DNA from: Mesorhizobium sp. 61-13
Lineage (GTDB): Bacteria; Pseudomonadota; Alphaproteobacteria; Rhizobiales; Rhizobiaceae
Assembly (NCBI GenBank): GCA_001897075.1
Contig: MKRZ01000182.1
Location: 1-35,160 of the forward strand
DNA length: 35,160 nt
Direction: 5' to 3'
In this document: piece by piece, positions 6,914 through 33,608 of the stretch
Numbering within the stretch: the first letter of the stretch is position 1
Layout of the letters: the number at the start of each line of letters is the position of its first letter
Notes under the pieces: model-generated
What the model was told of the DNA's origin: nothing
The model's input: only the letters and a program-made list of their open reading frames with translations
Databases searched by the model: none
Made by a program: the position numbers and the translations under genes

Positions 6914-9225
6914 GCGTGATCGGATTTCCGATGTCCCGGCCGGACGCAGCCGCCAAGGTAAGCGGCGAGACAATTTTTGCGTTCGACTATGAAGAACCTG
7001 GCACACTCGCGGGAAAGATTCTTCGTTCCACCATTGCGGCGGGCCGCATCGTCCGCGTCGATGCCTCGAAAGCGCGGGGCATGCCGGGCGTTAGAGCGGT
7101 TATCACTGCCGCCGACGTCCCATCCGTGTTGGGCGGCTGGATCATTCGCGACACGCCTATGTTCGCCAAAAGCGTGGTTCGTTATGTCGGTGAGCCAATC
7201 GCCGCCGTAGCGGCAGACTCCAAGGATGCGGCCCTTCGCGCCCTTGATGCAATAATCGTGGAAATCGAGGCCACCAAATCGGCTTGCACCATCGATGACG
7301 CGATCGCCGACGGGGCGCCGCTTCTCCATCCCGATCTCAAAACTTATCGAATGGCATCGGGCGGGGAAGGCGGCGATTATCCGCGCTATGGCAACATTGC
7401 CGCCGAGACCGCCTCGGTCGGCACAGACGAGGGCGTCGAAAAGGAATTTGCGCGCGCCGCTCGTATTGTCGAAGACGTCTATCGGACGCAGCGCCAATAC
7501 CAAGCCTATATCGAGCCCCGCAACGCCGTTGGCATATTCCGTGGCGGGCGTTACGTCACACACACCGGCACGCAATGGCCAGCCAATGTACGCGCGCGTA
7601 TCAGCCAATTCCTGGATGTCCCGCTTTCCAAGGTGAGGGTCATCGGGCACCCTTATGGCGGCGGCTTCGGGGGCAAGCTGGACTATGCGCTGGAGCCTTA
7701 TGCCATTGCTTTGTCACGGGCCTGCGGCGGTCGGCCGGTCAAAATACAAAACACAAGGCATGAGGATATGCTTACCGCGCCTTGCCGGGAAGCGACCTTA
7801 ATCAAGTTCCGGTCAGCGCTGGATGCTGAAGGCAACATCCTGGCGCGTGACGTCGAATGTTACATGGACAATGGCGCGTACACCGGCGAGATGTCGTTCC
7901 TGGCAAGCTTCCCGTTCCATTTCGCCGCGATCAATTACCGGGTTGGCAAGCTGAGGGCCGTTGGTCGGTTGGTCTACACCAACGCCGCGCCAACCGCCGC
8001 CATGCGCGGCGTCACCGGCGTGCCAATGTACTTCGCGCTCGAAAACCACATGGATCACATCGCTGCGGAACTGAACGTAGACCGTCGTGAATACAGGCTA
8101 CGGCATCTATTCCAGTCTGGCGACAGAATGTCCAACGGCCAGGTCCTGGAAGACGCCGATATACTGCGCCAGCAGTTCGATGCGATTGAGTCGATTGTTC
8201 CATGGCAAGAAGCACAGAAAAACAAGAAGCCCATGAGGGGCATCGCCATTTCGCCAGCGATATGGCCGACCAATCCCTTGCCTAGCTCCGCAACTGTCAA
8301 GTTGCAGGAAGATGGCTCCGTGGTCGTCGTTACCGGTGCCAACGACAATGGTAGCGGTGCCGTCGAAACGGGCATCCGTCAAATCGTTGCTGAAGAACTC
8401 GGCGTTCACCCAGACAACATAGTGATGACAGATCCGGATACCGATACTTCCGGATTCGATGGTGGCTCACAAGGGCAGCGGACGACAATCGTTGCCGGGG
8501 GGGCCGCCCTTGCTGCGGCGCGCGAACTCAAATCAAAAATACTGGCCCTAGCCGCGAGTATGCTGCAAACCACACCTGACAAGATCGAACTGGCGAACGG
8601 CCAAGCTAGACTGAAAGAACGAAACGACGTTTTCGTTTCGATTTCAGAGCTCGGAGTACACGCCACATTCTCCAACGGTTCACTGCAAGGTACCGGCGGC
8701 AGTTCCATCAAGCCGGTGCCTCACGACGCCGGGTGTGCCAGCGGGATGCTTGCACCTCTCTTCAACTCGCCTACCTACCATGTCCATTTCGCCGAAGTTG
8801 AGGTCGATCCGGCTACTGGAAACGTCAAGGTGCTACGCTATATCGTCGCTCAGGAAGTCGGCCGCGCCATCAATCCGAAAAGCATTGCGGGACAAATTCA
8901 GGGGGGCGTGACGCAGGGGATCGGCTACGCACTCTACGAGAGCCTGCGGATTTCGCCCAAAGATGGAACGCCCCTTGAGAAAGGGCTCGAATCCTATCGC
9001 CTGCCCCTATCGGTCGATATCCCGAGGATCGAGGTCCTCCTGACGGAGAATCACAACGCTAACGGCCCCTTCGGAGCCAAGGGCGTCGCCGAGGCGCCAA
9101 TCCTGCTTCCAGCCGCCGTCATAGCATCGGCCATCAGCGATGCGATCGGAAAGCCGTTCTCGAAGGCACCTATCACACCAGAAGATGTGCTTGCTGCACT
9201 CTTGGAAAAACCACCAACAAGCTGA
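6910..9225 (+). CDS. Molybdopterin-binding large subunit of a xanthine dehydrogenase-family protein
   Basis: VGEPIAAVAADS, GHPYGGGFGGKLDYALEPYAIAL, C-terminal GPFGAKGVAEAPILLPAAVIASAISDAIG with the catalytic-Glu segment. No AYXCSFR loop of true CO dehydrogenase; AAMRGVTGVPMYFALE in that region is of the general XDH type. Confidence 0.93.
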   Translation: MSVIGFPMSRPDAAAKVSGETIFAFDYEEPGTLAGKILRSTIAAGRIVRVDASKARGMPGVRAVITAADVPSVLGGWIIRDTPMFAKSVVRYVGEPIAAVAADSKDAALRALDAIIVEIEATKSACTIDDAIADGAPLLHPDLKTYRMASGGEGGDYPRYGNIAAETASVGTDEGVEKEFARAARIVEDVYRTQRQYQAYIEPRNAVGIFRGGRYVTHTGTQWPANVRARISQFLDVPLSKVRVIGHPYGGGFGGKLDYALEPYAIALSRACGGRPVKIQNTRHEDMLTAPCREATLIKFRSALDAEGNILARDVECYMDNGAYTGEMSFLASFPFHFAAINYRVGKLRAVGRLVYTNAAPTAAMRGVTGVPMYFALENHMDHIAAELNVDRREYRLRHLFQSGDRMSNGQVLEDADILRQQFDAIESIVPWQEAQKNKKPMRGIAISPAIWPTNPLPSSATVKLQEDGSVVVVTGANDNGSGAVETGIRQIVAEELGVHPDNIVMTDPDTDTSGFDGGSQGQRTTIVAGGAALAAARELKSKILALAASMLQTTPDKIELANGQARLKERNDVFVSISELGVHATFSNGSLQGTGGSSIKPVPHDAGCASGMLAPLFNSPTYHVHFAEVEVDPATGNVKVLRYIVAQEVGRAINPKSIAGQIQGGVTQGIGYALYESLRISPKDGTPLEKGLESYRLPLSVDIPRIEVLLTENHNANGPFGAKGVAEAPILLPAAVIASAISDAIGKPFSKAPITPEDVLAALLEKPPTS

Positions 9226-9240
9226 AAGACACGAGGGAAC

Positions 9241-10239
9241 ATGTCCATGACCGATCAAGACCGCTCCGTCGGCGTATTTATCCTCGGCGACTTGCCGCCT
9301 CAGGATATCGCGTCAGTTAGCAGGCAAATCGAAAAGAATAAATTCGATGAGATCTGGATTGCAGAAGACTGCTTCATGATCTCCGGCTTTGCCAGTGCTG
9401 CCATCGCCCTGCAAGCGACGGAATCCATTAAGGTCGGTATAGGCGCGGTATCAAACAGGGTGCGTCATCCCGCTATCGCAGCCATGGAAACCACTACGCT
9501 TTCAGGCGCATTTCCCGGCCGTTTCAGCAGGCTCGGCGTTGCCCACGGCGTCCCATCCTGGATGAAGCAGATCGGCCTGTTTCCGAAATCGGTCCTCGGT
9601 GCGCTTCGCGAATCCGTTACCGCGATCCGTCGGCTCGCCAAGGGAGAAACGCTGTCAGAGCAGGGCGAATATTACAGTTTCGAGGACGTCAAGCTTCTCC
9701 ACCCTGCTCCGCAGGTCAAGGTCCTCACCGCTGTCGTTGGGCCAAAATCCGTCGACCTCAGCGCTGAAATTGCCGACGGCATGCTTATCTCGGTCCTGGC
9801 AGGTCCGAAATATGTGCGCGCCATCCGCGACCAGATTACCGAGACTCGGCGGGCAAAGGGACTTTCGGACGAGTTCGAGTTGGTCACCTACGTGCTGGCA
9901 TGCGTCGGAAACAATCGCGAGGCAGCGCGGAAAAAGGTGCGGGACGCCACTGCCTTCTATCTCGAGGCGATGGGCCCGACGATGATGACGGGCGTCTATG
10001 GCGCCAACGAGCAGGTTGAGAAACTACTGGCCGAGCACGCTGGGCAGGAGCTTGCGAAATCAATACCCGAAGATTGGCTGGACTGGATTGCGATCGCAGG
10101 AGAACCTGCTGATGCAGTCAAAAGCATCAAGGCATTCTTTGAAAGTGGTGCGACGTCGGTTGTGCTTTGCATAGTTCCCTCCGACGAACTCCCCCAACAA
10201 CTTGATCTCATCGGGAGCGAAGTACTCCCCAACCTCTGA
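9241..10239 (+). CDS. LLM-class, probably F420-dependent oxidoreductase (methylene-H4MPT reductase-like)
   Basis: SVGVFILGDLPPQDIASVSRQIEKNKFDEIWIAED, IKVGIGAVSNRVRHPAIAAMETTTLSGAFPGRFSRLGVAHG, DGMLIS...; luciferase-like TIM-barrel pattern. Co-operonic with F420 biosynthesis genes. Confidence 0.88.
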   Translation: MSMTDQDRSVGVFILGDLPPQDIASVSRQIEKNKFDEIWIAEDCFMISGFASAAIALQATESIKVGIGAVSNRVRHPAIAAMETTTLSGAFPGRFSRLGVAHGVPSWMKQIGLFPKSVLGALRESVTAIRRLAKGETLSEQGEYYSFEDVKLLHPAPQVKVLTAVVGPKSVDLSAEIADGMLISVLAGPKYVRAIRDQITETRRAKGLSDEFELVTYVLACVGNNREAARKKVRDATAFYLEAMGPTMMTGVYGANEQVEKLLAEHAGQELAKSIPEDWLDWIAIAGEPADAVKSIKAFFESGATSVVLCIVPSDELPQQLDLIGSEVLPNL

Positions 10240-10271
10240 AATTGCACACCAAAGCTCCGGAGAAATCCGAC

Positions 10272-10940
10272 ATGAACGACAAGTATACCATCTCCATCGT
10301 CGGCGGCTCTGGAGCCTTGGGTTCCGGTCTTGCTTTCCGCCTGGCAAGAAGCGGTCACAATGTCCTTATTGGATCCCGTAGCCGGGAACGGGCAGAGGCT
10401 TGCGCTCAGGAACTGAACCAGAAGATCGGCGGCACCAATATTGTCGGCGTCACCAATCTCGAGGCGGCCCAACAGGGTGAGATCGTTTTCCTGACCGTCC
10501 CCTACGGTAACCACGGCGACACGCTGAACGAAATCAAAGACCATGTGTCTGGCAAGATCGTGGTCGATGTGACGGTGCCATTGGTCCCACCACGCGTCGC
10601 TCGTGTGACCCTGCCTCCCAATGGCTCGGCTGCCGTGACCACGCAAGTAACGCTTGGTGAGAGCGTGCGAGTGGTGTCGGCATTTCATAACGTGGCCGCC
10701 GTCCATCTGCACGACGTCGATCACGTTCATGAATGTGACGTTCTTGTGTTCGGTAACGACAAGGAAGCAAGATCAGTAGTTGTCGACCTGGCCGACCAGA
10801 TGGGCCTGAAGGCCTGGCATGGCGGCAGTATCGACAACTCGGTCATGGGTGAAAGCCTCACCCCTGTCCTGATCTTCATCAACAAGCACTATGGAGTGAA
10901 TGGCGCGGGGTTGCGAATTACAGGACGCCCCGCCGCCTGA
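10272..10940 (+). CDS. npdG: NADPH-dependent F420 reductase (F420:NADPH oxidoreductase, Fno/NpdG family)
   Basis: YTISIVGGSGALGSGLAFRLARSGHNVLIGSRSRERAE Rossmann start, VFLTVPYGNHGDTL, VVDVTVPL, VSAFHNVAAVHL typical of the NpdG family. Confidence 0.9.
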   Translation: MNDKYTISIVGGSGALGSGLAFRLARSGHNVLIGSRSRERAEACAQELNQKIGGTNIVGVTNLEAAQQGEIVFLTVPYGNHGDTLNEIKDHVSGKIVVDVTVPLVPPRVARVTLPPNGSAAVTTQVTLGESVRVVSAFHNVAAVHLHDVDHVHECDVLVFGNDKEARSVVVDLADQMGLKAWHGGSIDNSVMGESLTPVLIFINKHYGVNGAGLRITGRPAA

Positions 10941-10946
10941 CAGGTC

Positions 10947-11717
10947 ATGGCAGTACCAAATGTAAACATCGTCGCGCTCAGCCCCTATCCTCTGATTAAC
11001 AAAGGGGATGATCTCGTTGCCATTACACTGGCAGCATTGGCTGCGCAAAAGCTTGTGCTCCGAGATGGCGACATACTCGTCTATGCCCAGAAAGTGATCT
11101 CCAAAAGCGAAGGTCGCAAAGTTTCCTTGGCCAGCATCAGGCCAGGCAATGGCGCCATCGAGCTTTCCAAGCAGGTTGAAAAAGATCCCCGCCTTGTCGA
11201 ATTGATCCTGAGTGAATCACAAGAGGTGGTTCGAGCCGTTCCCAACGTTTTGATTGTTCGCCACAGGCTCGGATATGTCCTTGCCAATGCTGGGATCGAC
11301 GCCTCGAATGTCGATGAATGTATCGACGACCAGTACGTCCTTCTGCTGCCCGAAAACCCGGACAGGTCGGCCCTGAATATCCGCAAAGGGCTATCTAGAG
11401 CAACAGGCTGCCGGCTTGCGGTTGTCGTCAACGACAGTTTCGGCCGGGCATGGCGCATGGGCACCGTCGGCACGGCCATCGGATCGGCCGGACTAGCGAC
11501 GGTAATCGACATGCGCGGCACTGTGGACCTATTCGGGCGACAGTTGCAAAGCACTGATATTGGCTTTGCCGACGAGATATCTGCGGCGGCTTCCATGGTC
11601 CAGGGGCAGGCCGGGGAAGGTACACCCGTCGTGCTTGTTCGTGGATTGGCATGGGCAGAGAGTTCCGATGACGCGACAGCTCTTGTCAGGCCCAGAAACA
11701 TGGACCTGTTTCCCTAG
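10947..11717 (+). CDS. cofE: Coenzyme F420-0:L-glutamate ligase
   Basis: GDILVYAQKVISKSEGRKVSL, VNDSFGRAWRMGTVGTAIGSAGLATVIDMRGTVDLFGR are CofE signatures. 256 aa, so no C-terminal FbiB nitroreductase-like domain. Confidence 0.95.
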   Translation: MAVPNVNIVALSPYPLINKGDDLVAITLAALAAQKLVLRDGDILVYAQKVISKSEGRKVSLASIRPGNGAIELSKQVEKDPRLVELILSESQEVVRAVPNVLIVRHRLGYVLANAGIDASNVDECIDDQYVLLLPENPDRSALNIRKGLSRATGCRLAVVVNDSFGRAWRMGTVGTAIGSAGLATVIDMRGTVDLFGRQLQSTDIGFADEISAAASMVQGQAGEGTPVVLVRGLAWAESSDDATALVRPRNMDLFP

Positions 11718-11725
11718 GAGCATGG

Positions 11726-12703
11726 ATGAGAAGCGCGTATCCATCTTATGTGGCGTTGTCTGGCGGGGTCGGTGGAGCCAAGCTCGCGCTCGGACTCTCC
11801 AGAGCTGTTTCTGGCGACGAATTGCTTGTTGTGGCCAACATTGGAGACGATTTCGAGCATCTGGGTCTCTATATCTGCCCCGACCTGGATACACTGGCCT
11901 ACACCATATCAGGTCTCAATAACTGGCAGTTGGGATGGGGACGCAACGATGAAACATGGAATTTCATGGACACGCTTGCCGACCTCGGCGGTGAAGCATG
12001 GTTTCGTTTGGGAGATCGCGATCTTGCCTTGCACGTCCGACGCAGCCGCCGGCTTCGAGACGGCGCGAGTCTGTCCAGTACCGCCAAGGAAATCGCCTTC
12101 CGGCTTGGCGTCCGATGCGCGATCTGCCCTTGCTCTGATGATCCGATCCGCACGATGGTCACCACCGACGCTGGCGAACTTGAGTTCCAGCGTTACTTTG
12201 TCGAGCAGCGAGCCGTTCCCCGGATCCGCAGTCTGAGATACCAGGGAGCGGAAACCGCAAGGCCATCCACAACATTCGTCGATGCACTTTCAGGTGACGG
12301 ATTGAAAGCGGTCATCATCTGTCCGTCAAACCCGTTGCTCAGCATAGGGCCGATTCTGGCAATGCGACAGGCACGGGACGCCTTGCAGCACACCCCTGTG
12401 CCGATCATTGCCGTCAGTCCACTGAGGTCTGGAAAAGCCTTCAAGGGACCGACGGAATCCAACATGCGCGATCTGGGCATGACCCCGGACTCGCTTGGCG
12501 TGGCCCAGTACTACGGTTCGCTGATCGACGGAATTGTCATCGACCACAGTGATGCAGACCTCGCTCCGCAAATTCGGGAACTAGGCATATCGGTAACTTT
12601 CGCCGACATATCTATGCCCGCGCCAGAAGACTGCGAGCGGCTTGCGCGCGAGGTCGTTGGGATCGTGGAACGGAACGAAATCAGAAAACAGGTCGTCGAG
12701 TAG
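11726..12703 (+). CDS. cofD: 2-phospho-L-lactate transferase family protein
   Basis: YVALSGGVGGAKLALGLSRAVSGDELLVVANIGDDFEHLGLYICPDLDT and LNNWQLGWGRNDETWNFMDTL are CofD hallmarks; AGGAG upstream. Confidence 0.96.
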   Translation: MRSAYPSYVALSGGVGGAKLALGLSRAVSGDELLVVANIGDDFEHLGLYICPDLDTLAYTISGLNNWQLGWGRNDETWNFMDTLADLGGEAWFRLGDRDLALHVRRSRRLRDGASLSSTAKEIAFRLGVRCAICPCSDDPIRTMVTTDAGELEFQRYFVEQRAVPRIRSLRYQGAETARPSTTFVDALSGDGLKAVIICPSNPLLSIGPILAMRQARDALQHTPVPIIAVSPLRSGKAFKGPTESNMRDLGMTPDSLGVAQYYGSLIDGIVIDHSDADLAPQIRELGISVTFADISMPAPEDCERLAREVVGIVERNEIRKQVVE

Positions 12704-12705
12704 TC

Positions 12706-13443
12706 ATGCGCGATCACGCCCCATTCCACGATGCGACATTGATCGTTCCCGTGCGCGCGCTGAACGATGGAAAGAATCGTCTCGCCGAGATTCTCACTGA
12801 ATCCGAACGAAGACAGTTGATTGGCGCCATGCTGGAGGACGTCATCGCCGCCGCGACCGCGTGCCCGCACATCGGATTGACACTGATAGTCACCGAAGAT
12901 GACGAGGCTGCTCAACTGAGCGTCGCCGCCGGCGCGGTTGTGCTTCGTCTCGGAGGCGTTTCAGGTTACAACAATTGCGTTCGCCTGGCCGTCGATCATG
13001 TGCGCGCCGTCAGGGGCGGAACTATAATCGTCTGTCCAGCGGATGTTCCATTTGTTCAGCCTCACGAATTGGCGGCTGTGGCGGAAACCGCATCGGTAGC
13101 CGGCCAAATTGCACTTGTGCCTGCTTTCGATGGCGGCACAAATTGCATAGGTCTGTCGCCCGATGCAAAATTGGATTTCAAATTCGGCAATTCCAGCTTC
13201 GAGAAGCACCTCGCGGAAGCCGGCCGTAACGAGCTCAAATCGGTGGTTCTCGAACTTCCTGGCATGGCGTTCGACATCGATACGCCGCGACAGCTGGAAC
13301 AACTGTCTTTGATTCAGTCAAACTCGAAGGCCAGCCGATTGGCCGAAACGATCTCGTGTGGCCGCAGTTGGCAGGATGTCAAAGTGACAATGCCTGATGC
13401 TGCATTCCATGCCGGTCGGGCAGACCCACAGATCCAAGGATAG
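12706..13443 (+). CDS. cofC: 2-phospho-L-lactate guanylyltransferase family protein
   Basis: TLIVPVRALNDGKNRLAEILTESERRQLIGAMLEDV and IVCPADVPFVQPHEL match the CofC nucleotidyltransferase pattern; sits between cofD and fbiC. Confidence 0.92.
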   Translation: MRDHAPFHDATLIVPVRALNDGKNRLAEILTESERRQLIGAMLEDVIAAATACPHIGLTLIVTEDDEAAQLSVAAGAVVLRLGGVSGYNNCVRLAVDHVRAVRGGTIIVCPADVPFVQPHELAAVAETASVAGQIALVPAFDGGTNCIGLSPDAKLDFKFGNSSFEKHLAEAGRNELKSVVLELPGMAFDIDTPRQLEQLSLIQSNSKASRLAETISCGRSWQDVKVTMPDAAFHAGRADPQIQG

Positions 13444-15864
13444 ATGGGAATTATGAATAGACTGTCGTTCGAAGAAGCTGTCAGGATTGGTTCCAAGTTA
13501 CCGATCAAAGAACTGGCGGCGCTTGCTTCGGAAACATGCGCCGCAGCGCACGGACATACCGTAACCTATTCGCCAAAGGTGTTTATTCCTCTCACCCAAC
13601 TTTGCCGTGACGTCTGCCACTACTGTACCTTCGCCAAGGCTCCAAGAAATCTAAAACAGCCTTACCTTTCGATCGACGAAGTCCTCGATGTTGCAAAAGC
13701 CGGAGCCAAGGCTGGTTGCACCGAAGCGCTGTTTACGCTGGGCGACAAACCGGAGCTTCGTTACAATTCCGCGGCCAAAGCACTCGAAACGATGGGCTAT
13801 TTAACGACGCTGGATTACGTAAGGGCGGCGGCGGAAATCGTACTTAAGGAGACGGGCCTTCTCCCCCACATCAACGCCGGCGTCATGGCGAGTGACGATA
13901 TTGCCGCGCTGCGGCGCGTCTCCGTATCCCAAGGCTTGATGCTCGAGAGCACTTCGTTGCGCTTGTGCGAGAAAGGCGGGCCTCATTACGGCTCCCCTGA
14001 CAAGCTGCCCGAAGCTCGCCTTTCCACGTTGCGTGCAGCGGGTGAGCTACGAGTTCCGATGACCACCGGCCTTCTATATGGAATTGGAGAGACGCGCGAG
14101 GAGCGATTGGAATCGCTGTTCGCGATCAGGGCATTGCACGAGCAATATGGTCACATTCAGGAAATCATCGTCCAGAATTTCCGCGCCAAGCCGGGCACGC
14201 GCATGGCGTCCGCACCGGAGCCCGATCTTGATGAGACGGTGTGGACCATCGCAATGGCGAGGCTCGTGTTTGGCCCAGACATGAATATCCAGGCCCCGCC
14301 GAACCTCTCCCCTGACGGGTTGCAACAGATACTAGACGCCGGCATCAATGATTGGGGCGGTGTTTCGCCGGTCACGATAGACTATGTCAATCCGGAAGCG
14401 CCATGGCCTCATCTAGAAGACCTGAGAAGTCAAACTGCCAATGCAGGTCGAACTCTGGCGGCCCGCCTGCCCATCTACCCGCAATATTCCAATTCGAAAT
14501 GGCTCGATCCGGCAACCCACACATTCGTCATGAAAGTCAGTGATGCGGCCGGGCTTGGGCGAGAGAGTATGTGGACAAGTGGGGTAAGTGTCTCGGCACC
14601 CACCATCGTCAAAACATCACAGAAAGTGTCGTCTTCCACGGCCTATTTTGTTGAGAAGAGTCTTAGCGGAGCACGGCTCGCCCAAGCTGAGGTTGCTACG
14701 CTTTTTTCGGCGCGAGGCGCTGACTTTCACCATGTCATCGACGCAGCCAACGATCTGAGAAGGCAAATAAACGGCGACCACGTGACCTACGTGGTCAACC
14801 GCAACATCAATTACACGAACGTCTGCAGTTATCACTGCCAGTTCTGCGCCTTTTCGAAAGGCAAGATCAGCGAAGAGCTTCGCGGCCGACCCTATATCAT
14901 CGATCTGGAAGAGATCGTGCGTCGCGCAACAGAGGCTAGCCGACGCGGCGCAACCGAAGTTTGCTTGCAAGGCGGTATTCATCCCGATTTTTCAGGCGAG
15001 ACATACCTTGCGATCACCCGCGCAATCCGATCGGCTCTACCCAACATCCATATCCATGCATTCTCACCGCTCGAGATTTGGAGTGGAGCAAAGTCCCTTC
15101 ACCTGACTGTTTCAGATTACCTAAAGCGTCTCATTGACGCTGGGCTCGGGACATTGCCAGGCACCGCAGCCGAGATTCTGGACGACAATGTGCGGGCTAC
15201 CCTTTGCCCCGACAAGCTTAGCAGCGCCGAATGGTGCAGTGTGATTGAAAGTGCCCATGCCCTCGGCTTGAAAACGACTGCGACCATTATGTTCGGGCAC
15301 ATAGATTCCTATGAAAATTGGGCGACGCATCTTCTGAAGATCCGGGACATCCAGGAGCGCACTGCAGGCTTCACGGAATTCGTACCTCTACCATTCGTCG
15401 CACAGGAAGCACCGCTGTTTGTCAAAGGTCGCTCAAGGATCGGCCCGACATATCGAGAGGCGGTTCTGATGCATTCGGTAGCCCGCCTCGTATTTGGACA
15501 TTTGCTGCCGAGGATTCAGACATCTTGGGTGAAGATGGGCCTGGAGGGTGCTGCGGCATGCCTCAATGCCGGCGCCAATGACATGGGTGGAACTCTCATG
15601 AACGAGAGCATCACCAAGGCGGCCGGTGCAAAACACGGAGAGGAGATGCCGCCAGAGCAAATGGACCAGCTGGCATCCTCGATTCGTCGTCAGGCACGTC
15701 AGCGCACAACCCTCTATGGTGCAGCTCCTCCAATTCAGATCTCCCGATCGTACGGAGCTCCCATCGTCGAGAAAACCAATATGACGGACGCAAAGAACTA
15801 TGGCACCGCAGCCATTTCCGGCCACGGCCAAGCAGCGCTGTCTGCCGACTTGACCCCTGATTGA
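13444..15864 (+). CDS. fbiC: Bifunctional FO synthase (fused CofG-CofH)
   Basis: 806 aa with two radical-SAM CxxxCxxC motifs: LCRDVCHYCTF (CofG half) and VCSYHCQFCAF (CofH half). Confidence 0.96.
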   Translation: MGIMNRLSFEEAVRIGSKLPIKELAALASETCAAAHGHTVTYSPKVFIPLTQLCRDVCHYCTFAKAPRNLKQPYLSIDEVLDVAKAGAKAGCTEALFTLGDKPELRYNSAAKALETMGYLTTLDYVRAAAEIVLKETGLLPHINAGVMASDDIAALRRVSVSQGLMLESTSLRLCEKGGPHYGSPDKLPEARLSTLRAAGELRVPMTTGLLYGIGETREERLESLFAIRALHEQYGHIQEIIVQNFRAKPGTRMASAPEPDLDETVWTIAMARLVFGPDMNIQAPPNLSPDGLQQILDAGINDWGGVSPVTIDYVNPEAPWPHLEDLRSQTANAGRTLAARLPIYPQYSNSKWLDPATHTFVMKVSDAAGLGRESMWTSGVSVSAPTIVKTSQKVSSSTAYFVEKSLSGARLAQAEVATLFSARGADFHHVIDAANDLRRQINGDHVTYVVNRNINYTNVCSYHCQFCAFSKGKISEELRGRPYIIDLEEIVRRATEASRRGATEVCLQGGIHPDFSGETYLAITRAIRSALPNIHIHAFSPLEIWSGAKSLHLTVSDYLKRLIDAGLGTLPGTAAEILDDNVRATLCPDKLSSAEWCSVIESAHALGLKTTATIMFGHIDSYENWATHLLKIRDIQERTAGFTEFVPLPFVAQEAPLFVKGRSRIGPTYREAVLMHSVARLVFGHLLPRIQTSWVKMGLEGAAACLNAGANDMGGTLMNESITKAAGAKHGEEMPPEQMDQLASSIRRQARQRTTLYGAAPPIQISRSYGAPIVEKTNMTDAKNYGTAAISGHGQAALSADLTPD

Positions 15865-18257: not shown

Positions 18258-20384
18258 TTGGCCGAAAATCAACTGTATGTCATGCATATTTCCATTCACG
18301 GTCTTTTCCGGGGCACTGACCCGGAAGTGGGCACCGACGTCGACACGGGCGGACAGGTCCGCTACGTCCTCGACCTGATCGAGGCGATGGGCAGCCACCG
18401 CAACATCCGCAAGGTCGATCTGCTTACGCGCAAGATCACCGATGCGCGGGTCGCTTCCGACTATGGCGTGGACCTCGAAGCCCTTTCCCCTAAGGTCAGC
18501 ATCCGGCGCATTCCCTGCGGGCCGAGCCGCTATATGCGCAAGGAGCTTTTGTGGCCCCATCTCAGCGAGTTCACCGACGGCGCGCTGGCGATGATCCGCG
18601 AGCAGGGGGAACTGCCCGACATCCTGCATGCGCATTACGCCGATGCCGGGCTGGTCGCGGTGCGGCTGAGCAAGGCGCTCGGCATCCCGGTGGTCTTCAC
18701 CGGCCATTCGCTCGGACGGTTCAAGCTAGCCAACCTGATGGCGCGCGGCATGGAGCGGGAGAAGGCCAACCAGACCTTCAACCTGACCGAGCGGATCGAG
18801 GCGGAAGAAGAAACCATCGAGAACGCCGCGCTCGTCGTCGCCAGCAGCAAGAACGAGGAGCGCGAGCAGTACCGGCTCTACGATCATTACGAGCGCAAGC
18901 GGATCATGGTGAACCCGCCCGGCTGCGATCTGGCGAAGTTCGGCGAGAAGCCGGGCAAGGCAGTGAACCAGGCGCTCCAGAAAACGCTTGCCCGCTTCCT
19001 CGACGATCCGGCCAAGCCGGCGCTCATCATGCTGGCCCGCCCAGACCCGCAGAAGAATATCCTCGCCGCCATCGAGACGTTTGCCGAAGCGGGTTTGCGC
19101 GACATGTGCAATCTGGTGCTGTTCCTCGGCGCACGCGACGACATCAGGGAGCTCGAGCCGGCGCAGAAGAAGCTGTTGCAGGATGTGCTCTACCTCATCG
19201 ACCGGTACGACCTTTATGGCAGTGTCGCCTACCCGAAGACCAATCCGCCCGAAATGGCCGCAGCACTTTTCCACTATGCCGCGCGCAGCGGCGGCGCGCT
19301 GCTGGGACTTTCCCGTCACGAGAATTTCGGCCTGACGTTGGTGGAGGCTGCAACTGCGGGGCTGCCGGTCGTCACGTCTGGGGCCGGTGGCATGTCGGAC
19401 ATCCTCGACATCTGCAAGAATGGCATTGTCGTCGACCCTGACAATCCGGCGGAAACGGCTGGGCGTGTCCACGAACTCCTGCTCGACCCGACACGCTGGA
19501 AACAGATGGCCGAGAGCGGCAAGGCGGCCAGCCGCGCGAACCTCACCTGGAAGAGCCACCTCGACCGCTATCTCGGCGAGGTTCGCGAGATCGTTCGGGC
19601 GCAGGTGACGCCGGAAGTGAGGATCACCCAGCCCAAGCCGCTCTCCAAGAGCACGAGGCTTTTGATCTGCGATATCGACGACACGTTGACTGGTGACCGT
19701 GACGCCATCAGCCGGCTAAACAGGATTATCGCGCAGCGCGACGACATCACTTTCGGGATCTCGACCGGCCGTAACCTTGAGGGTGCGATGGAGACGCTGC
19801 AATCATGGTCGGTCATCGAGCCGCAATTCCTGATCACCTCAGTGGGCACCGAGATTCACACCAATTTCGGCGAGCTGATTCCTAACGGCAGGTGGTCGAG
19901 ACATCTGCAGTTCCGCTGGAGCCCGCAGCGTGCGCGCGATGTCTTGGGAAAGGTGCCATGGCTGCGGCCACAGGAAGGCGAAGCGCAAGCGCGCTTCAAG
20001 ATCAGCTACTATTGCGAGGATGCGGACGCGACGACGATCGCGAACGTAAAGACGCTGCTTCGAAAAAACGGATTGCAGGCGCGCGTCGTCGTTTCGCGGA
20101 ACTATTGCGTCGATGTCCTACCGGTGCGTGCATCGAAGGGCCATGCGCTGCGCTTCCTCGCAGCGCAATGGAGCATCGATCTCAGTAACATCTTCACCGC
20201 CGGCGATTCCGGCAATGACCTCGACATGCTGCGCGGACTGGTCAAGGCCACCGTGGTCGGCAACCATAGCGGCGAGCTTGAAATGCTCCGGGACGATCCA
20301 AACACTTGGTTTTCATCACGCAACTCGGCAGCCGGCATTCTTGACGGACTGGTGCACTACGGTCTGATCGCACCGACGCAATGA
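18258..20384 (+). CDS. Sucrose-phosphate synthase-like GT4 glycosyltransferase fused to a HAD-IIB (sucrose-phosphate phosphatase-like) domain
   Basis: MHISIHGLFRGTDPEVGTDVDTGGQVRYVLDLIEAM, VFTGHSLGR and ENFGLTLVEAATAGLPVVTS in the GT half; LLICDIDDTLTGD and FTAGDSGNDLDMLRG in the HAD half. TTG start preceded by AGGAGG. Confidence 0.92.
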   Translation: MAENQLYVMHISIHGLFRGTDPEVGTDVDTGGQVRYVLDLIEAMGSHRNIRKVDLLTRKITDARVASDYGVDLEALSPKVSIRRIPCGPSRYMRKELLWPHLSEFTDGALAMIREQGELPDILHAHYADAGLVAVRLSKALGIPVVFTGHSLGRFKLANLMARGMEREKANQTFNLTERIEAEEETIENAALVVASSKNEEREQYRLYDHYERKRIMVNPPGCDLAKFGEKPGKAVNQALQKTLARFLDDPAKPALIMLARPDPQKNILAAIETFAEAGLRDMCNLVLFLGARDDIRELEPAQKKLLQDVLYLIDRYDLYGSVAYPKTNPPEMAAALFHYAARSGGALLGLSRHENFGLTLVEAATAGLPVVTSGAGGMSDILDICKNGIVVDPDNPAETAGRVHELLLDPTRWKQMAESGKAASRANLTWKSHLDRYLGEVREIVRAQVTPEVRITQPKPLSKSTRLLICDIDDTLTGDRDAISRLNRIIAQRDDITFGISTGRNLEGAMETLQSWSVIEPQFLITSVGTEIHTNFGELIPNGRWSRHLQFRWSPQRARDVLGKVPWLRPQEGEAQARFKISYYCEDADATTIANVKTLLRKNGLQARVVVSRNYCVDVLPVRASKGHALRFLAAQWSIDLSNIFTAGDSGNDLDMLRGLVKATVVGNHSGELEMLRDDPNTWFSSRNSAAGILDGLVHYGLIAPTQ

Positions 20385-20394
20385 TGAATAGGAG

Positions 20395-21390
20395 CTAGTC
20401 ACGGAGCGGCACACCGTATTTGCTGGCATCGACCCGCAAATAACCTTCCGGCGTGGTCCAGAGCCGCATCGGGCTTGTGATCTCGCCGACAAAGCTGCCG
20501 TCGGGCCGATGATTGAGGAAGGTCATGAGCGCAAGTCGGCCATCCGGAACCTCTATAACCCGACCTCCATAAAGATGGCCAACAGCGTCGCCTGCGAAGA
20601 ACAGTTCCTCGACGAGCTCAAACGGCCCGTTGGGATTGCGCGAGCGGACATAGTGGGTGCCGGTACACATGCCGCATCTACCCGTAGCCAGGTAGGCTGG
20701 ATCGCGCAGGCGCGATGAGTTGCTGAAGAGGCAATACCACCACCCGTCAAGCTGAAAGAGTTGCGGCACCTCCATCTCACCATAATAGCCAATCCGGAAA
20801 AGCGGCGGCTCGACGGTCCAGTTCGTAAGATCGGGTGACGAGGCCTGCCCGATCACGCCTGCGCCGCGGGCATTGATGTCGTTATCTCGTGCGGTGAACA
20901 ACATCCGCCATCCGCCAGTCGCAGCATCTTCGAAGACCCATGGGTCTCGAAATGACTGGTCGTGCCAGCGCGAGACATCATAGGATTCGTAATATTGGGC
21001 ATCCGCCTCTAGCAGCGCTTCGTTCCCCAATCTCTGCCAGTCGTGAAGATCGTCTGACACCGCCGCGCCGATGCGCTGGATCTGGCAATCCTCGGCTTTC
21101 TGGGTTCCCGTATAGAACATCATCCATTTGCCGTCTGGACGCCTCACGACCGAGCCCGTCCAGGTCGTGCCGTCATCCCAGCCGGGCCCAATCGCTGGCC
21201 CCAACACGACGCCATGGTAGTCCCAATCTTCGAGGTCGAGCGATGTTGCATGATAGATCCGGGCCTTCGGATGCCGCAGGTCAGGATGCTCTTGGGTGCG
21301 AGGCGCAGTGAGGCAGTAAAGATGATACGTGCCCTTATCCTTCGCAAACCAGAAGTCCCAGACATAATGCCCGGGTAACGAAAATCCCAT
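20395..21390 (-). CDS. GH32/GH68-like (beta-fructosidase/levansucrase clan) glycoside hydrolase
   Basis: MGFSLPGHYVWDFWFAKDKGTYHLYCLTAPRT, GTTWTGSVVRRPDGKWMMFYTGT, SFRDPWVF (RDP motif). Start at ATG 21390. Confidence 0.75.
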   Translation of the reverse strand: MGFSLPGHYVWDFWFAKDKGTYHLYCLTAPRTQEHPDLRHPKARIYHATSLDLEDWDYHGVVLGPAIGPGWDDGTTWTGSVVRRPDGKWMMFYTGTQKAEDCQIQRIGAAVSDDLHDWQRLGNEALLEADAQYYESYDVSRWHDQSFRDPWVFEDAATGGWRMLFTARDNDINARGAGVIGQASSPDLTNWTVEPPLFRIGYYGEMEVPQLFQLDGWWYCLFSNSSRLRDPAYLATGRCGMCTGTHYVRSRNPNGPFELVEELFFAGDAVGHLYGGRVIEVPDGRLALMTFLNHRPDGSFVGEITSPMRLWTTPEGYLRVDASKYGVPLRD

Positions 21391-21630
21391 CGCAAAAATC
21401 CTGTTATTTATAGCCGGGAACCCGGCTGTTAGACGGCCCCGCCAATTGGGTCTGCCCAACGTCGCCCACCAATGTGCCGAACTTAAGAAAGCTACTTGAA
21501 CATCCGAACGATGGTTGCTGACCAAGCTCCAGCCTCATTTGTCCCATGAACTGTGGGGCGTCCGGTCGCGACAAGGGCGCCCGCCATGGTTTTGCTTGAG
21601 CCAAGGGGCGACTGCCAAGCCAAATTGTGC

Positions 21631-23310: not shown

Positions 23311-24366
23311 TCAGGCTACGGGTTCGCCAATAATGGTCATGCTCAGGAAGTCTGAGCTGCCAACGCGGGAAATTCCCGTGACAACCTCACTGAACGGATC
23401 GTTTGCCTGCGCTCCTTCGGCCGATTCCCTTGTAGGAAAGAGCGATATGATATTCCCGGTTTCGATCTCGCGTATCGCATGGCAACGACGCCATTTCGGG
23501 TTCTCTGGGTCAAGGGTTGGCGCCCAATTTATCAATTGCGGCAGCGCCTCTAGCCAGACACCCCAAGCAGTGCCGACGAATTGACCGGGCATAGGGTCCA
23601 ACGCCCGGCTTACGAGTCCAATTACTTCGCCGCTTGAATTAAGGACTGGGCCGCCGCTCATTCCGGATGGCCAGTGCGCTTCAACCTCGAATACGGGGGT
23701 CGGGTTGGACCTATCCCGACCCTTGGGGTGCAAAGCCGTCACCACCCCGTAGGCAGCCTGCAACCCGCCCTCGGATATAATCGACCGTACTTCGTCGGCA
23801 TTTCCTTTGATAGTGTCAACATAGGGGAAGCCAAGGGCGATGACGGTGTCACCAACACGCGGCCCGGACCGGAGCCTTATGGGGAGTGTTCCGGCCATAT
23901 TTTCGGGTTGTGGGTCGCGCGTTCGTAGGACAGCGATGTCGAGTGGCCTGGGTCTATCGTTACCGCGCAGGACATTCAAAGGATTGTCGTCGGGAATAGC
24001 CGGCGTGAAAGCACGAACAATCGGCGCAATACCCTCATTCGGAACGGGAGGTGTACCAAAGGCGACGCCAATTCCGAGCAAAGCAACAAAACCCTCATCG
24101 GCCCGAAACGCGCGCATGGACTCGACAACGTGATCCGCCGTAAGCAGGGTGCCCCATGGGTCAGCCGCCAGACATGAGCCGTAGCCTTGCAGGTCTCCAT
24201 CGCGTCCGACATGTAAAACCGGCAGCACTGCTCGTCGCACGCCAAAGGGGTCGTCAAATTCGAACAGACTATGATGTTGTTCTTCGCGCGGGACGAGGGC
24301 GCGCGGGCTGCGTCCTGCTGCGTCATCTTCGCAGGTTTGAACCAAAATCGGCGAAAAGTCGGTCAT
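23311..24366 (-). CDS. Trypsin-like (S1 family) serine protease
   Basis: GYGSCLAADPWGTLLTADHVVE (His), RPLDIAVLRT (Asp), WPSGMSGGPVLNSSGEVIGLVS (Ser, GxSGGP): intact catalytic triad. Confidence 0.88.
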   Translation of the reverse strand: MTDFSPILVQTCEDDAAGRSPRALVPREEQHHSLFEFDDPFGVRRAVLPVLHVGRDGDLQGYGSCLAADPWGTLLTADHVVESMRAFRADEGFVALLGIGVAFGTPPVPNEGIAPIVRAFTPAIPDDNPLNVLRGNDRPRPLDIAVLRTRDPQPENMAGTLPIRLRSGPRVGDTVIALGFPYVDTIKGNADEVRSIISEGGLQAAYGVVTALHPKGRDRSNPTPVFEVEAHWPSGMSGGPVLNSSGEVIGLVSRALDPMPGQFVGTAWGVWLEALPQLINWAPTLDPENPKWRRCHAIREIETGNIISLFPTRESAEGAQANDPFSEVVTGISRVGSSDFLSMTIIGEPVA

Positions 24367-24441
24367 CGTCTCCCCCTTATCTAGGGATCAGCGGCACCAG
24401 AATCTGGTCCTTTGCGTGGACTACAGCAGGTCAATCCTGGT

Positions 24442-25383
24442 TCAGGAACGAGGGCAGCCGCGCTTTCTTAAGTTCCGTCGGGCCAGTGCGGCCAAGAAGT
24501 GAATGCGCAATCTGAAAAGGAGATGTGAGAGCCGGCTGCCTTTCGGCGGGATTGCTCCCGCCTCGGCAAAACGCACCAGGTCTCGTCTGAATTCCTGCCA
24601 TTGCCCTTTGCTCTTTAAGAATTGAACCCCTTCCTGCTTTTCATGATGCTCGGCCCATTTGTAGAGATGGGCATCATCGACATGGGATTCCAAATGTCCT
24701 TTCGAATTCCTCAGCAGGTCAGCCATCGGGAGAATATCGTCAGGGGACGCTAGGTTCTCATGCTCCCGGCGTAAATGCCACGCCAGCATGTCCGCTGCTT
24801 GAAGCGGCGACAGCAGTTTGTCGTTCTGAAAGGCAGGGACGCCGCTGATAAGTTTCCGGGCTCTGCGCGGGATGTTTCGCTTCATCTGGTGGAACAAGAG
24901 GGACATGTCTGCGCTCACGCCGTCTTGTTCGTCGAAGATGTATTCGATTCGAGTCTTGGCTTTGGTCTCTGCGACGTAGCGTGCAACGCCGGATATCACG
25001 CTAAAGCAGCAGGTGAAGTGCGGGCTTCCCAGACCGCGAGGCGAGACGGGGGTAAGAACGCGAAAATGCTCGCCACGATTGATCGTGAACTGGAAGGACA
25101 GAGGCTCGAAATGGCTGATGACGCGCGCCAGACCTTTCAGCTTCTGATCGCGGGCCTCCTTCGTCCATCCTTTGAACTCACCGCGCAGGTTATTCGCTTC
25201 CACCATGCGTAAGTACGCGATCGAGGGCAGCGCCTGTAGCTCCTCGCGCCATGCCTCGGAAAAGAGCTGCCATCTATCGGCTCGGTTGAGATAGCCGGCC
25301 ATGAACAGCCGCTTGTCTCCCTTGTCACTGGCTGAGTCGTCACAGAACGCCTGAAGGAGGATAGGGCTTCGTCTTTCCCACAT
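24442..25383 (-). CDS. DUF3800 domain-containing protein (RNase H-like fold predicted for the family)
   Basis: LQAFCDDSASDKGDKRLFMAGYLNRADRWQLFSEAWREEL, RIEYIFDEQDG, LLSPLQAADMLAWHLRRE match the DUF3800 pattern. Confidence 0.87.
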   Translation of the reverse strand: MWERRSPILLQAFCDDSASDKGDKRLFMAGYLNRADRWQLFSEAWREELQALPSIAYLRMVEANNLRGEFKGWTKEARDQKLKGLARVISHFEPLSFQFTINRGEHFRVLTPVSPRGLGSPHFTCCFSVISGVARYVAETKAKTRIEYIFDEQDGVSADMSLLFHQMKRNIPRRARKLISGVPAFQNDKLLSPLQAADMLAWHLRREHENLASPDDILPMADLLRNSKGHLESHVDDAHLYKWAEHHEKQEGVQFLKSKGQWQEFRRDLVRFAEAGAIPPKGSRLSHLLFRLRIHFLAALARRNLRKRGCPRS

Positions 25384-25385
25384 AT

Positions 25386-28300
25386 CTACGCAGCTCTTTT
25401 TAGGAGGTCTATGCCGATGACCGTGATCTCATCTACGTTCGGAAACTCCTGCGCAATTTCTTCCCAACGATTCTGAAGCGCTGCAATCAGGCCTTCAAAA
25501 TCAACCCGGTTGGCTCCACCCGGTACATCCCACCCAGCCTTTTCGCCCGTGCGTACCAGAACGAAAACGCCGCGTGCCGACCTGTTGTCGCGTAAATAGT
25601 CGCCACAGAGCTGGTTCTCCAACCGCTCGAAAAGTTCAGGGCCAGTCCACTTGTCGGCCAGCTTCAACTCGGCCGGTACGGGTGCATCAAATCCCATCCC
25701 GTGGAACCTGATGTCAGGCTTCTTGGCATCTGCAAACTCCTCCTCTTGCGGGACGGAATAGCGAGCGGACGCCTTCTCACGAAGCTCACGCCCGATATAT
25801 TTCCGCATATCGGTTTCTAGCGTCGCACCTGCTTTAAGTATTGTAGCGATGCTACTGTCTCCGTTCTCAAGATCATCTTTCAAATCGAGGAACCGCATCA
25901 CCGCAAGCTCCGCCAGCTCTCGATGATTGGCCGGCGTTCGTTCCAGCTTGTCATGGAAGTCGCGGACCTGTGCAGGCATCCACGGCGCGATATCCGAGTC
26001 CTGCTCGGCCTTCACCTTTGCCAAGTGGGCGAACCATGGACGGGATTCCACCTCCGGGTGGGATCGCGATATTTCTTGCAGGGCCAGGAAGGCTTCCTTA
26101 CCAGGAATCTTGTTCAGCAGATCAAATAGTCCGTTCCTTGAATCCTGCGCCTTGTCGCGCAAACCTGGCGAATAAACCCCCGTGCCGGCGCGATCGATGT
26201 CCTCGCTTCGCCGGATATAACCATGCATCAGCAGATAGAGGGTCTTCAAATGTCGAGGTGTTTGATATCTGGCCCTGGTGCTGGCCGCGCTTCTGCGGCC
26301 GCCCCATAGGTTTGTTACAAAGCTCATCGCGAATTCTGTTCGCGCCTCGCCCTGAGGCAATTCTTCAGAATGGGCTGCAAGGTCGGGAACTGCGGCTTCA
26401 GGATCGACACCTACCCAGACGGCGTACCAGTGAGCCACATGCTGCGGGGTGTGTACCGACCGGACTTTTTGCCACGCGAGCGCGGCTATTTCCTCGTCGG
26501 ACAGTGCCGATCCCTGCAAAATCTTGAGGAGCTTTTCCAACGTGGCTGCGTTCGCAGGCTCGGATTCCTTCAGCAGATTTGCGATGTGCGGGCCGAGAGT
26601 GGCCCAGCTCCATTCACCGGACCAGCTAACGTCACTGAGGACGTAATTATCCTCCTTCTCAGGTGTCGCTTTCGAAAGCTCGAAGCCAATCTCCTGAAGA
26701 AGGAAATCTTTGACGGTGCTCGTATGCGCCTCGAAGAGCTTGGGAAACCAGGTTGGGAAACCGTTCAATTCAAACGAGGCATATCGGCAGGCGAGTTCGA
26801 TGTCTGCTTCGCTGAGGCTTTGCGCCCAATTTGGTGTCTCCTGCGCTTCGATTTCGAGTCCGGCCAAGCCCAGAATTACCGACATTGGTGTCGAGTTTTC
26901 TGGTGCGCCTTCCGAACGAATAGTCGGTCTCTCACGCCGCCAATAAGCAACAATTCCGTCACGGAACGCTTGCGCGATATCCTTGCCAAACTCGGCTTCC
27001 AAGTTTCTCCAGTTGCCATGGGTCCACCGACCAGAGCGATCACTATCGCGGCGCATCCGGTCGTGAAGGTAGGTTAGGCCGTTGAAGACATAGCCAGGTT
27101 TGGTCAGACTTGGGTCGCGCAATTTGTCGAGATTTTCGCTCAGATACTTTTTTGAGTCTGCGAGATTCTTTTCCTCTTTTCGCTTTCTTTCCTCGGAGCG
27201 TCTCTTCCATTGCGCTTCCTGGCGTTTCCAGGCGCGGGCGTCTTTTCCTTGTGCCGGTGGATTGAGGAACTTGTCCAACTCATCCGACAACTCCGTGTTG
27301 CCGGAGACGAGTCGCTTGAGCCTTTCACGCCACAAACGCGGCCGGTCGTTCGTGATGTAGAGTCTAAAAGCCAACGACAGCGCGACAAGCTTGTCGTCTT
27401 GGAAGGGCTGAGTTGCAATTTGCTCGGAGACATAGTCGAAATCCTCCGCGCCAAAGCGCCAGAACGGCTCCACGACAAAAACCGGCCAGAAATCGGTAAG
27501 CCGTTCGTTGCGCTTTTCGTCTCGCCGTTCTCTCGCAAGGTTAATCTCATACCAAAACAAGGCCCTATTCAGTTCCGGCCACTCTGGCACAAGGGTCGAG
27601 AACTTCGTTTTCGCATTGTTGAGTTCGCTGTCGAGATAGTGACGTCCCATTCCGAACTTATCGAGGACCGCCAGCACGGCAGGTTGCAGTGACGCTGAAT
27701 GGCGGGCCTCGATGAGACGCTCGGCTGCCTGGGATGCGGGCGTCATCAGCCAAGTAAATTTCTGCGATATCTCGCAAAAACGCCTCTCGATAACTGGCGG
27801 CGTGTTGAGCAGTTGATCAAAGCCGACAAGCAACTCGGACAGTTGATCGAGACCGGCGGCCTGAACGAAGGTGCTCACAGCGTCGGAAAGGCGATCGACG
27901 CTGTACCGCTCTTTCTCTTCCGTTTTGCCCAAGCACTCAAGCAGCCACTTGATCGTGTCCGGTGTCGGAGCGGTTTCCTTCGTCAACTCGGCAAGCCAGT
28001 CGCGATCCAGTTCTGCCGCTTCTGCGAGAAAACTGTTGCGGATGTCTTCTTGATCCTGCTCGGACCCAACTGCCCGAACTGCTCTAAACGCGGCAATGCG
28101 CGTGTACTGTGAAACGGAAGGTGAAAGCGCGATCTGCTTTGCCTCGGGCAATGCACCGGAGAGCTGGCCCAGCCAGACCATTCGGAGCAGAAAAGCCTTC
28201 AGCTCTTCATCGGTCGCATACTTAGCTAGAAGGCTGCGCACATCGTCGGTCAGATCGGGATTGGAGAAGCGTTGTACAGCCGCATAGTCGGTCATCGAGC

Positions 28301-29720
28301 GGCCGGATGTTCCGCTCGCCAGTTGTTCGCAGACTTCATGGAGAATGAGCCTTCGCGTCTCGAACGGTAGCTGGCTCGGATCGCCCCCTTCAAAAACAAC
28401 CTCAGGGGCAACTTTTCGCAACCTCTCTCGAATCTTGGGATCGAGAATAGCCAGCCAAGGTAAGATCGGACGGAGCGTGGGGACGATGATGTCCAGCCCG
28501 TACTGATTGGTGAAGAAGAGGGCTTCGATCTTTCGTCTCAAGGTTTCTCGGCTCAACAACTCAGCGAACCATTCGGCCGCGAGATACTCGCGGACGGAGC
28601 GATGATGGAAGCGCACAGTTCCATAGATTGCTTCGTCAAATATCGGGCGGGACAGCAGCGTTGAGCGTTCTCTGTCGTCCCAGTCAGGAAGCACGTCGTG
28701 GAGAGCGATGCCTTTCGAATTTTCGGCTCCATCCGGAACTCGAATAGTCGAATCTTGCGCCAAGGTGGTCGCTGCGGCTATCAACCTTGCTCCTTGCAGA
28801 GCCTTTTGGGGAGCTAGCGGGTATACATCGATGCGCTCCTGATCTCTTTCCCGGAGACGCCGCGATATGTTGTTGCGCATGATTTCTAGGCGGCTTCCGA
28901 TGCGGCCCTGATCAAGCCAGAATTCCGTCAGTTCCATCAAATCCTGTGGTCTTGACGTGAAGGACCATGCATCGGCGCGCTCGATGGCCTCAATGAAGGC
29001 TTTAGTGTCATTGATGCCACGGGCACTAGAAAATGCCTCGATTTGAGTACGAGACAGGTCGTCCAACGTGACGATCTTAAAGACGGGCTTGGACTTTTCT
29101 GCCGGCCTATCCGAAGTCTCAACAGCGCTCTCGATCATGTCGTCGATGTCGGAAGTCTCGTCTTCCTTCGCCGTCGTCGTGGCGGGCGTGAAAGGCAGAT
29201 GAGCGACGCAAAGCGCAAGATCGGTTTTGGGGCGCCACGCATTGGTGCGTCCGGTGACAACAATGTGCGAGCGATCCTTCGCCGTTGCGATCCGTCTTCC
29301 CAGCTTCTTAATTGCGAGCGCGAAGTCTCCCGGATTGCGCAAGCGCGCCTCATCGACCGAGTCCAGCAGAAGCCAGCCCTCATCATTCGATGCCAGCCAC
29401 GTCTCGAACTCTTCGAAAGTACCGACCTCAAATCCGTCCTCGAAATCATTAGGTACATGTTCGAGGCGGATAAAAAACGCGAACTTGCCTTGGGTACGGA
29501 GATCGAGGGCGATATTCCGAATTTCAGCAGTTTTACCTGAACCGGCTTCCGACAGGATAATGACGCGGTACCGCTCAATCAGGTCCGACCAAGAAAGCCG
29601 CTCACCGACATGGAACGCATGACTCAGGTCGAGCTCATCGTCCTCGTTGGCGTACTTGGACAGCTCGTGAAAAGTGCGGTTCAGCTCTATAAATTGATAC
29701 TCGGAGTCGCTTTCGATCAT
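25386..29720 (-). CDS. NACHT/STAND-type NTPase with helical-repeat middle region and possible C-terminal PD-(D/E)xK nuclease
   Basis: YRVIILSEAGSGKTAEIRNIALDL (Walker A), EGWLLLDSVDEARL (Walker B), HIVVTGRTNAWRP sensor-like; C-terminal KKPDIRFHGMGFDAPVPAELKLADKW fits PD-x(n)-ExK. Confidence 0.82.
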   Translation of the reverse strand: MIESDSEYQFIELNRTFHELSKYANEDDELDLSHAFHVGERLSWSDLIERYRVIILSEAGSGKTAEIRNIALDLRTQGKFAFFIRLEHVPNDFEDGFEVGTFEEFETWLASNDEGWLLLDSVDEARLRNPGDFALAIKKLGRRIATAKDRSHIVVTGRTNAWRPKTDLALCVAHLPFTPATTTAKEDETSDIDDMIESAVETSDRPAEKSKPVFKIVTLDDLSRTQIEAFSSARGINDTKAFIEAIERADAWSFTSRPQDLMELTEFWLDQGRIGSRLEIMRNNISRRLRERDQERIDVYPLAPQKALQGARLIAAATTLAQDSTIRVPDGAENSKGIALHDVLPDWDDRERSTLLSRPIFDEAIYGTVRFHHRSVREYLAAEWFAELLSRETLRRKIEALFFTNQYGLDIIVPTLRPILPWLAILDPKIRERLRKVAPEVVFEGGDPSQLPFETRRLILHEVCEQLASGTSGRSMTDYAAVQRFSNPDLTDDVRSLLAKYATDEELKAFLLRMVWLGQLSGALPEAKQIALSPSVSQYTRIAAFRAVRAVGSEQDQEDIRNSFLAEAAELDRDWLAELTKETAPTPDTIKWLLECLGKTEEKERYSVDRLSDAVSTFVQAAGLDQLSELLVGFDQLLNTPPVIERRFCEISQKFTWLMTPASQAAERLIEARHSASLQPAVLAVLDKFGMGRHYLDSELNNAKTKFSTLVPEWPELNRALFWYEINLARERRDEKRNERLTDFWPVFVVEPFWRFGAEDFDYVSEQIATQPFQDDKLVALSLAFRLYITNDRPRLWRERLKRLVSGNTELSDELDKFLNPPAQGKDARAWKRQEAQWKRRSEERKRKEEKNLADSKKYLSENLDKLRDPSLTKPGYVFNGLTYLHDRMRRDSDRSGRWTHGNWRNLEAEFGKDIAQAFRDGIVAYWRRERPTIRSEGAPENSTPMSVILGLAGLEIEAQETPNWAQSLSEADIELACRYASFELNGFPTWFPKLFEAHTSTVKDFLLQEIGFELSKATPEKEDNYVLSDVSWSGEWSWATLGPHIANLLKESEPANAATLEKLLKILQGSALSDEEIAALAWQKVRSVHTPQHVAHWYAVWVGVDPEAAVPDLAAHSEELPQGEARTEFAMSFVTNLWGGRRSAASTRARYQTPRHLKTLYLLMHGYIRRSEDIDRAGTGVYSPGLRDKAQDSRNGLFDLLNKIPGKEAFLALQEISRSHPEVESRPWFAHLAKVKAEQDSDIAPWMPAQVRDFHDKLERTPANHRELAELAVMRFLDLKDDLENGDSSIATILKAGATLETDMRKYIGRELREKASARYSVPQEEEFADAKKPDIRFHGMGFDAPVPAELKLADKWTGPELFERLENQLCGDYLRDNRSARGVFVLVRTGEKAGWDVPGGANRVDFEGLIAALQNRWEEIAQEFPNVDEITVIGIDLLKRAA

Positions 29721-30221
29721 CTTATTCCATTGGAAATGCGGGGTGACATCTTGCTATCATGCGCAAGGGAACAAGAGAAGAACAACCGAGCAGCACGATG
29801 CTTCTCATGCCGCTGAACCGGCCTGTCAGCGGAATCCGATAGGCCGCCCCAAAATGTTAACGTCGGAGGCAGGATAGGCGATAGGGAAAGCGGCCATCCT
29901 CAATGTAGGCAATCACCCTCGCGTACGTGCCGTCTCTCTCGCCAACGTCATGATGAGCGACAGGCCGTGAGGCCATCAGCTAAGCGCCCCTGAAGAGGCG
30001 TCGAAGCTTCACCCTTACGCTCGGAATGTCATCTTTGCCTGATCAGGGTATGAAAGCTGTCAGTCCGCTGTCGGCCCCAAAGGCGACATTGCGCGAACCA
30101 TTCGGTCGGGTAGACTTGAGCGCCATATCAAAGCCCTCCAAGAAACTCCTCAAGCAGCCACAAACAACTGGACTTCTTCGCCACGGCAAGCGTGTGTGTC
30201 GCGACCTTTGCGGAGCGCGAC

Positions 30222-33531: not shown

Positions 33532-33608
33532 TGGTGATCCCGACAGGAATCGAACCTGTGACCTACAGATTAGGAATCTGCCGCTCTATCCTACTGAGCT
33601 ACGGGACC
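33532..33608 (-). tRNA. tRNA-Arg (anticodon CCU)
   Basis: Reverse complement GGTCCCGTAGCTCAGTAGGATAGAGCGGCAGATTCCTAATCTGTAGGTCACAGGTTCGATTCCTGTCGGGATCACCA folds as a cloverleaf; CCA encoded; anticodon CCT. Confidence 0.95.

Follow-up and report, generated by a model that had tools for sequence, protein, structure and literature searches.

Several described systems come close to the locus analysed here. bNACHT25 carries a PD-(D/E)XK DNase at its N-terminus, and this domain is required for defence (PMC12169576). In the CARD-NLR system LypABC, trypsin-like peptidases can act together with NLR-like proteins (PMC13236601), and proteins of the DUF3800 family have a published RNase H fold (PMC10910872, PMC12669027). 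NCBIfam lists an equivalog family, NF058534, under the full name 'NACHT domain-containing antiphage protein HyoA', and a related one, EruA (NF058535). A literature search for HyoA and EruA as antiphage names gave no match in the papers covered.

The window, that is, the whole stretch of DNA analysed, is one complete contig (C182, 35,160 bp) of a draft genome of 3.9 Mb in 216 contigs. An earlier note on this DNA had described three tightly arranged genes on one strand, each with intact motifs, beside a recombinase and a tRNA, and all of these were found in place. Two features that it does not mention were added, a putative PD-(D/E)XK-type C-terminus of the NTPase and a SIR2-like gene farther downstream. 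The parts of the locus are:

25386-29720, minus strand: HyoA, a STAND/NACHT-type NTPase of 1444 aa (ORF list; NCBIfam NF058534), with the P-loop at residues 57-64, Walker B at 116-124, a long middle part and a putative C-terminal PD-(D/E)XK-like nuclease domain at about 1300-1444
25389-25820, minus strand: predicted C-terminal nuclease domain of HyoA, residues 1301-1444 (conserved residues and AlphaFold2 model)
24442-25383, minus strand: DUF3800 protein, 313 aa (PF12686, E 6.5e-8; model matches to RNase HII/H2)
23311-24366, minus strand: trypsin-like (Trypsin_2) serine protease, 351 aa (PF13365, E 5.8e-17)
24430-30080: transferable HyoA-DUF3800 module, the blastn block common to the window and locus L091
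31622-33325, plus strand: large serine recombinase of the carrier island (Pfam Resolvase 4e-40, Recombinase 8.8e-11)
33532-33608, minus strand: tRNA-Arg (CCT), the island edge (ARAGORN)

By ORF positions, 2 bp separate HyoA from DUF3800 and 75 bp separate DUF3800 from the protease. Promoter and terminator scans gave no more matches than in shuffled sequence.

The NTPase matched the HyoA profile from end to end (positions 1-1430 of 1430) with 1857.9 bits, the curated equivalog cut-off being 1200 bits. By sequence it is thus a full-length member of this catalogued anti-phage family, which bears out the earlier proposal of an anti-phage STAND/NACHT protein and withdraws the accompanying one of an unnamed system. 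The P-loop AGSGKT (K63) and the Walker B motif LLLDSVDE (D120/D123/E124) could be read directly from the sequence, and A59, G62, K63, D120, D123 and E124 were unchanged in all 22 aligned HyoA homologues. The Pfam NACHT and nSTAND models hit the protein below cut-off only (E 0.004-0.07). PADLOC (2023), which holds no HyoA model, had no family matching the NTPase at E up to 1, AVAST (Avs) as modelled there included, so that defence searches with tools from that time would overlook it.

At the C-terminus of HyoA, E1302, E1326, D1336, E1351-x-K1353, Q1370 and Y1375 were invariant in 25 of 25 homologues with identities ranging from 20 to 96%. In an AlphaFold2 model of the last 300 residues (mean pLDDT 83.9, pTM 0.61), these residues sit on elements in the order alpha-beta-beta-beta-alpha-beta, the first strand being a short E-E bridge by DSSP. 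The residue pattern of PD-(D/E)XK nucleases, D...(E/D)xK with a supporting E and Q, is therefore present together with the order of the core elements, suggesting that HyoA probably carries its own effector, a predicted C-terminal PD-(D/E)XK-type nuclease. Pfam gave no family match for the C-terminus of the window HyoA, and one of 21 relatives touched PDDEXK_15 at E 0.19. In the PDB, Foldseek ranked a protein of unrelated kind first (E 0.005) and matched endonucleases of the nicking and restriction types at E 0.05 and weaker, with the Hachiman defence system among the weak matches, and a viral library returned restriction, Mrr, RecB-like and HamA-like proteins, again weakly (E 0.07-0.9). Sequence searches of the PDB gave no useful match for HyoA, its C-terminus or the DUF3800 protein.

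The DUF3800 protein scored 33.8 bits against PF12686 (cut-off 21). Its acidic residues D15/D16, D151 and D198 were read from the sequence, and D15 and D198 were invariant in seven relatives. Although the confidence of its model was modest (pLDDT 67.3), the top 13 PDB matches were all RNase HII/H2 (E 0.003-0.05), and in line with the published family fold we regard the protein as a predicted RNase H-fold nuclease, probably translated together with HyoA.

We asked how widely this pair occurs. Of 148 genomes of the genus, 22 gave a match to the HyoA model at any score (4 above cut-off), as did 33 of 398 genomes of the order (9 above cut-off). Plasmids carry relatives of the window HyoA too: 63 records contain them, and in 36 the relative spans at least 80% of its length. 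For 23 further HyoA loci, from 21 genomes, the gene neighbourhood was drawn, and PF12686 was searched in the same genomes. One genome (G010) was left out because its HyoA ends at the contig edge, and it has a DUF3800 elsewhere. Not one of the 20 other Hyphomicrobiales genomes in which the surroundings of HyoA could be assessed has a DUF3800 next to it, and neither the plasmid copy of HyoA in R. johnstonii (57%) nor the one in B. glumae (48%) has such a neighbour.

A general NACHT-DUF3800 pairing was also considered and dropped: the PF12686 search of 22 HyoA genomes and 25 further ones, the majority of which have long ORFs related to HyoA, found it in the window's own genome only. The two cases there are the window itself and another contig (G000:C89), where a DUF3800 lies about 1 kb from an NTPase gene; at this locus (L038), a second HyoA-related long STAND ORF occupies 4400-8473 and a weak DUF3800 lies about 1 kb upstream at 9458-10465. 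Some HyoA copies elsewhere are interrupted. On B. glumae plasmids (e.g., NC_012720.2, 122032-128046), an ISNCY transposase gene splits HyoA in many strains, HyoA being in one piece in p39s3p, and a homologue in G366 (L068, 7462-11805) is broken by one in-frame TAG.

When 85,488 species genomes were scanned with the single DUF3800 protein, a search that detects close relatives only, two came up, one in a Rhizobiaceae MAG (L091) and one in Aquibium carbonis (L092). At both loci, DUF3800 lies 2 bp behind a HyoA that is 96% (L091) or 92% (L092) identical to that of the window. DNA homology by blastn covers window positions 24430-30080 for L091 (96.0% identity) and 24439-29785 for L092 (90.4%); one end lies 3-12 bp beyond the stop codon of DUF3800, the other upstream of HyoA but short of the recombinase module. 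Because the homology stops just past DUF3800 and the protease is absent from both loci, HyoA and DUF3800 make up a single transferable module, to which the protease does not belong. The dN/dS was 0.15 for HyoA (window versus L091) and 0.20-0.25 for DUF3800, indicating that both proteins are kept under purifying selection.

The kept 2-bp junction, the joint transfer in three loci and the purifying selection on both genes would also be expected if this lineage relied on HyoA and DUF3800 as an obligate two-gene system, with HyoA as the sensor and DUF3800 as an indispensable effector or regulator, such as one that holds toxicity in check. Accessory roles of DUF3800 RNase H-fold proteins in some CRISPR systems (PMC10910872, PMC12669027) fit such an arrangement. 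However, every other judgeable HyoA homologue does without DUF3800, relatives of DUF3800 with 40-53% identity occur without HyoA, and the pairing is known only from three closely related loci that perhaps go back to a single joining event. An obligate pair is therefore unlikely, and we regard DUF3800 as an accessory in this sublineage and the pairing as an unstudied minor variant of the known HyoA. Put forward tentatively, and with a low probability, is a two-nuclease variant, in which a STAND NTPase that ends in a PD-(D/E)XK nuclease domain would act together with a co-translated RNase H-fold DUF3800 protein, the latter being needed for the anti-phage activity or tuning it.

The protease gene itself looks sound: the Trypsin_2 match is above the Pfam cut-off and the triad H79/D143/S237 can be read from the sequence. 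The earlier note had joined it to the other two genes as the effector of a three-gene defence operon. One strand and short gaps speak for such an operon, as does the action of trypsin-like peptidases in CARD-NLR systems (PMC13236601), but the module borders in L091 and L092, the sole other loci with the pair, exclude the protease, and on this ground the three-gene unit was rejected. HyoA is found elsewhere without either partner. The one good protease relative in the 398 genomes of the order (44%, G256) has a ZacC gene rather than HyoA in its vicinity; the genus holds weak relatives only and plasmids none, and viral contigs yielded no relatives of HyoA, DUF3800 or the protease. Moreover, Pfam finds a peptidase domain only, whereas LypA is reported to have an ATPase domain, and a separate protease effector is unnecessary if HyoA has its own predicted nuclease-like domain. 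The three-gene operon is thus highly improbable, the claim of a new system of this kind is removed, and the protease is an unrelated neighbour, a separate cargo of the island.

Downstream of the protease, a SIR2-like gene with a GAGAS motif runs from 21854 to about 22957 on the minus strand (PF13289, E 0.002; PADLOC SIR2, 9e-5; both weak). It likely represents one more defence gene on this island, and its real start is probably near 22957. The shared strand, together with the position of the protease relative near ZacC, could mean that the protease is part of a defence unit of its own on the island, perhaps one that includes this gene. About 350 bp lie between the two genes, though, both SIR2 scores are weak and no second locus with a protease and a SIR2-like gene was found, which makes such a unit quite unlikely. 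On a plasmid of R. johnstonii (L115, 12963-15946), a HerA-SIR2 pair is located near HyoA (PADLOC HerA 5e-168, SIR2 2e-81).

The recombinase module recurs at the same tRNA-Arg site in G064 and G063, the sharing with G064 starting at window position 30159. The recombinase beside tRNA-Arg is thus a recurring integration module, and the suggestion of a mobile island holds. In Aquibium carbonis, a TraG-like protein, a relaxase and another serine recombinase flank the HyoA-DUF3800 module. The left border of the island was not found; window positions 18258-21525 had trivial matches only in 19 relatives. Farther left, at 10947-15864 on the plus strand, genes resembling those of coenzyme F420 biosynthesis were recognised by eye (ligase, phospholactate transferase, guanylyltransferase and a fused CofGH-like radical SAM protein of 806 aa), with an LLM-type oxidoreductase nearby at 9241. 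F420-like genes are unexpected in this order.

The explanation we favour, and consider probable, is that HyoA is an anti-phage STAND NTPase with its own C-terminal nuclease, DUF3800 an accessory in one sublineage and the protease separate cargo. It is built on family membership, gene order, module borders, conserved residues and predicted folds. For sensing, nuclease activity, the target and the role of DUF3800, we infer the following course. HyoA would work as a single protein in most relatives; its long middle part may sense an infection signal, upon which the NACHT-type NTPase would bind and hydrolyse NTP and oligomerise. This would in turn switch on HyoA's own PD-(D/E)XK-like nuclease, and phage DNA, host DNA or both may then be degraded by it. 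The gene for the RNase H-fold DUF3800 protein would have been added directly behind HyoA in the window's sublineage and would travel with it, most likely supplying a second nuclease that adjusts or curbs the response. HyoA thereby gains a testable mechanism, a predicted C-terminal nuclease with named residues, and HyoA with and without DUF3800 offers a natural comparison for the role of DUF3800 accessories in defence.

Compared with the known systems, the locus resembles CARD-NLR/LypABC (PMC13236601) in having a trypsin-like peptidase gene near an NLR-like protein; membership of that type calls for a peptidase with CARD and ATPase domains beside an NLR, whereas Pfam shows Trypsin domains only for the window peptidase, which is not conserved with the NTPase. 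EruA is a related NACHT-type antiphage family and matches residues 215-1387 of the window HyoA at 201 bits, far under its cut-off of 1000 bits. Like bNACHT25/32 (clade 6; PMC12169576), HyoA is predicted to join a NACHT-type NTPase to a PD-(D/E)XK-type nuclease. The nuclease is N-terminal in those proteins but predicted to be C-terminal in HyoA, which departs from the tripartite bNACHT architecture in that its P-loop at 57-64, with about 50 residues before it, leaves scant space for an N-terminal effector domain. As in V-A2 and VI-F CRISPR loci (PMC10910872, PMC12669027), an RNase H-fold DUF3800 protein accompanies a defence gene, but the partner here is HyoA and no CRISPR gene was present among the ORFs examined. 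HyoA itself is the closest, matching the window NTPase over its whole length, and the window's lineage differs from the other judgeable homologues by the DUF3800 gene attached behind it.
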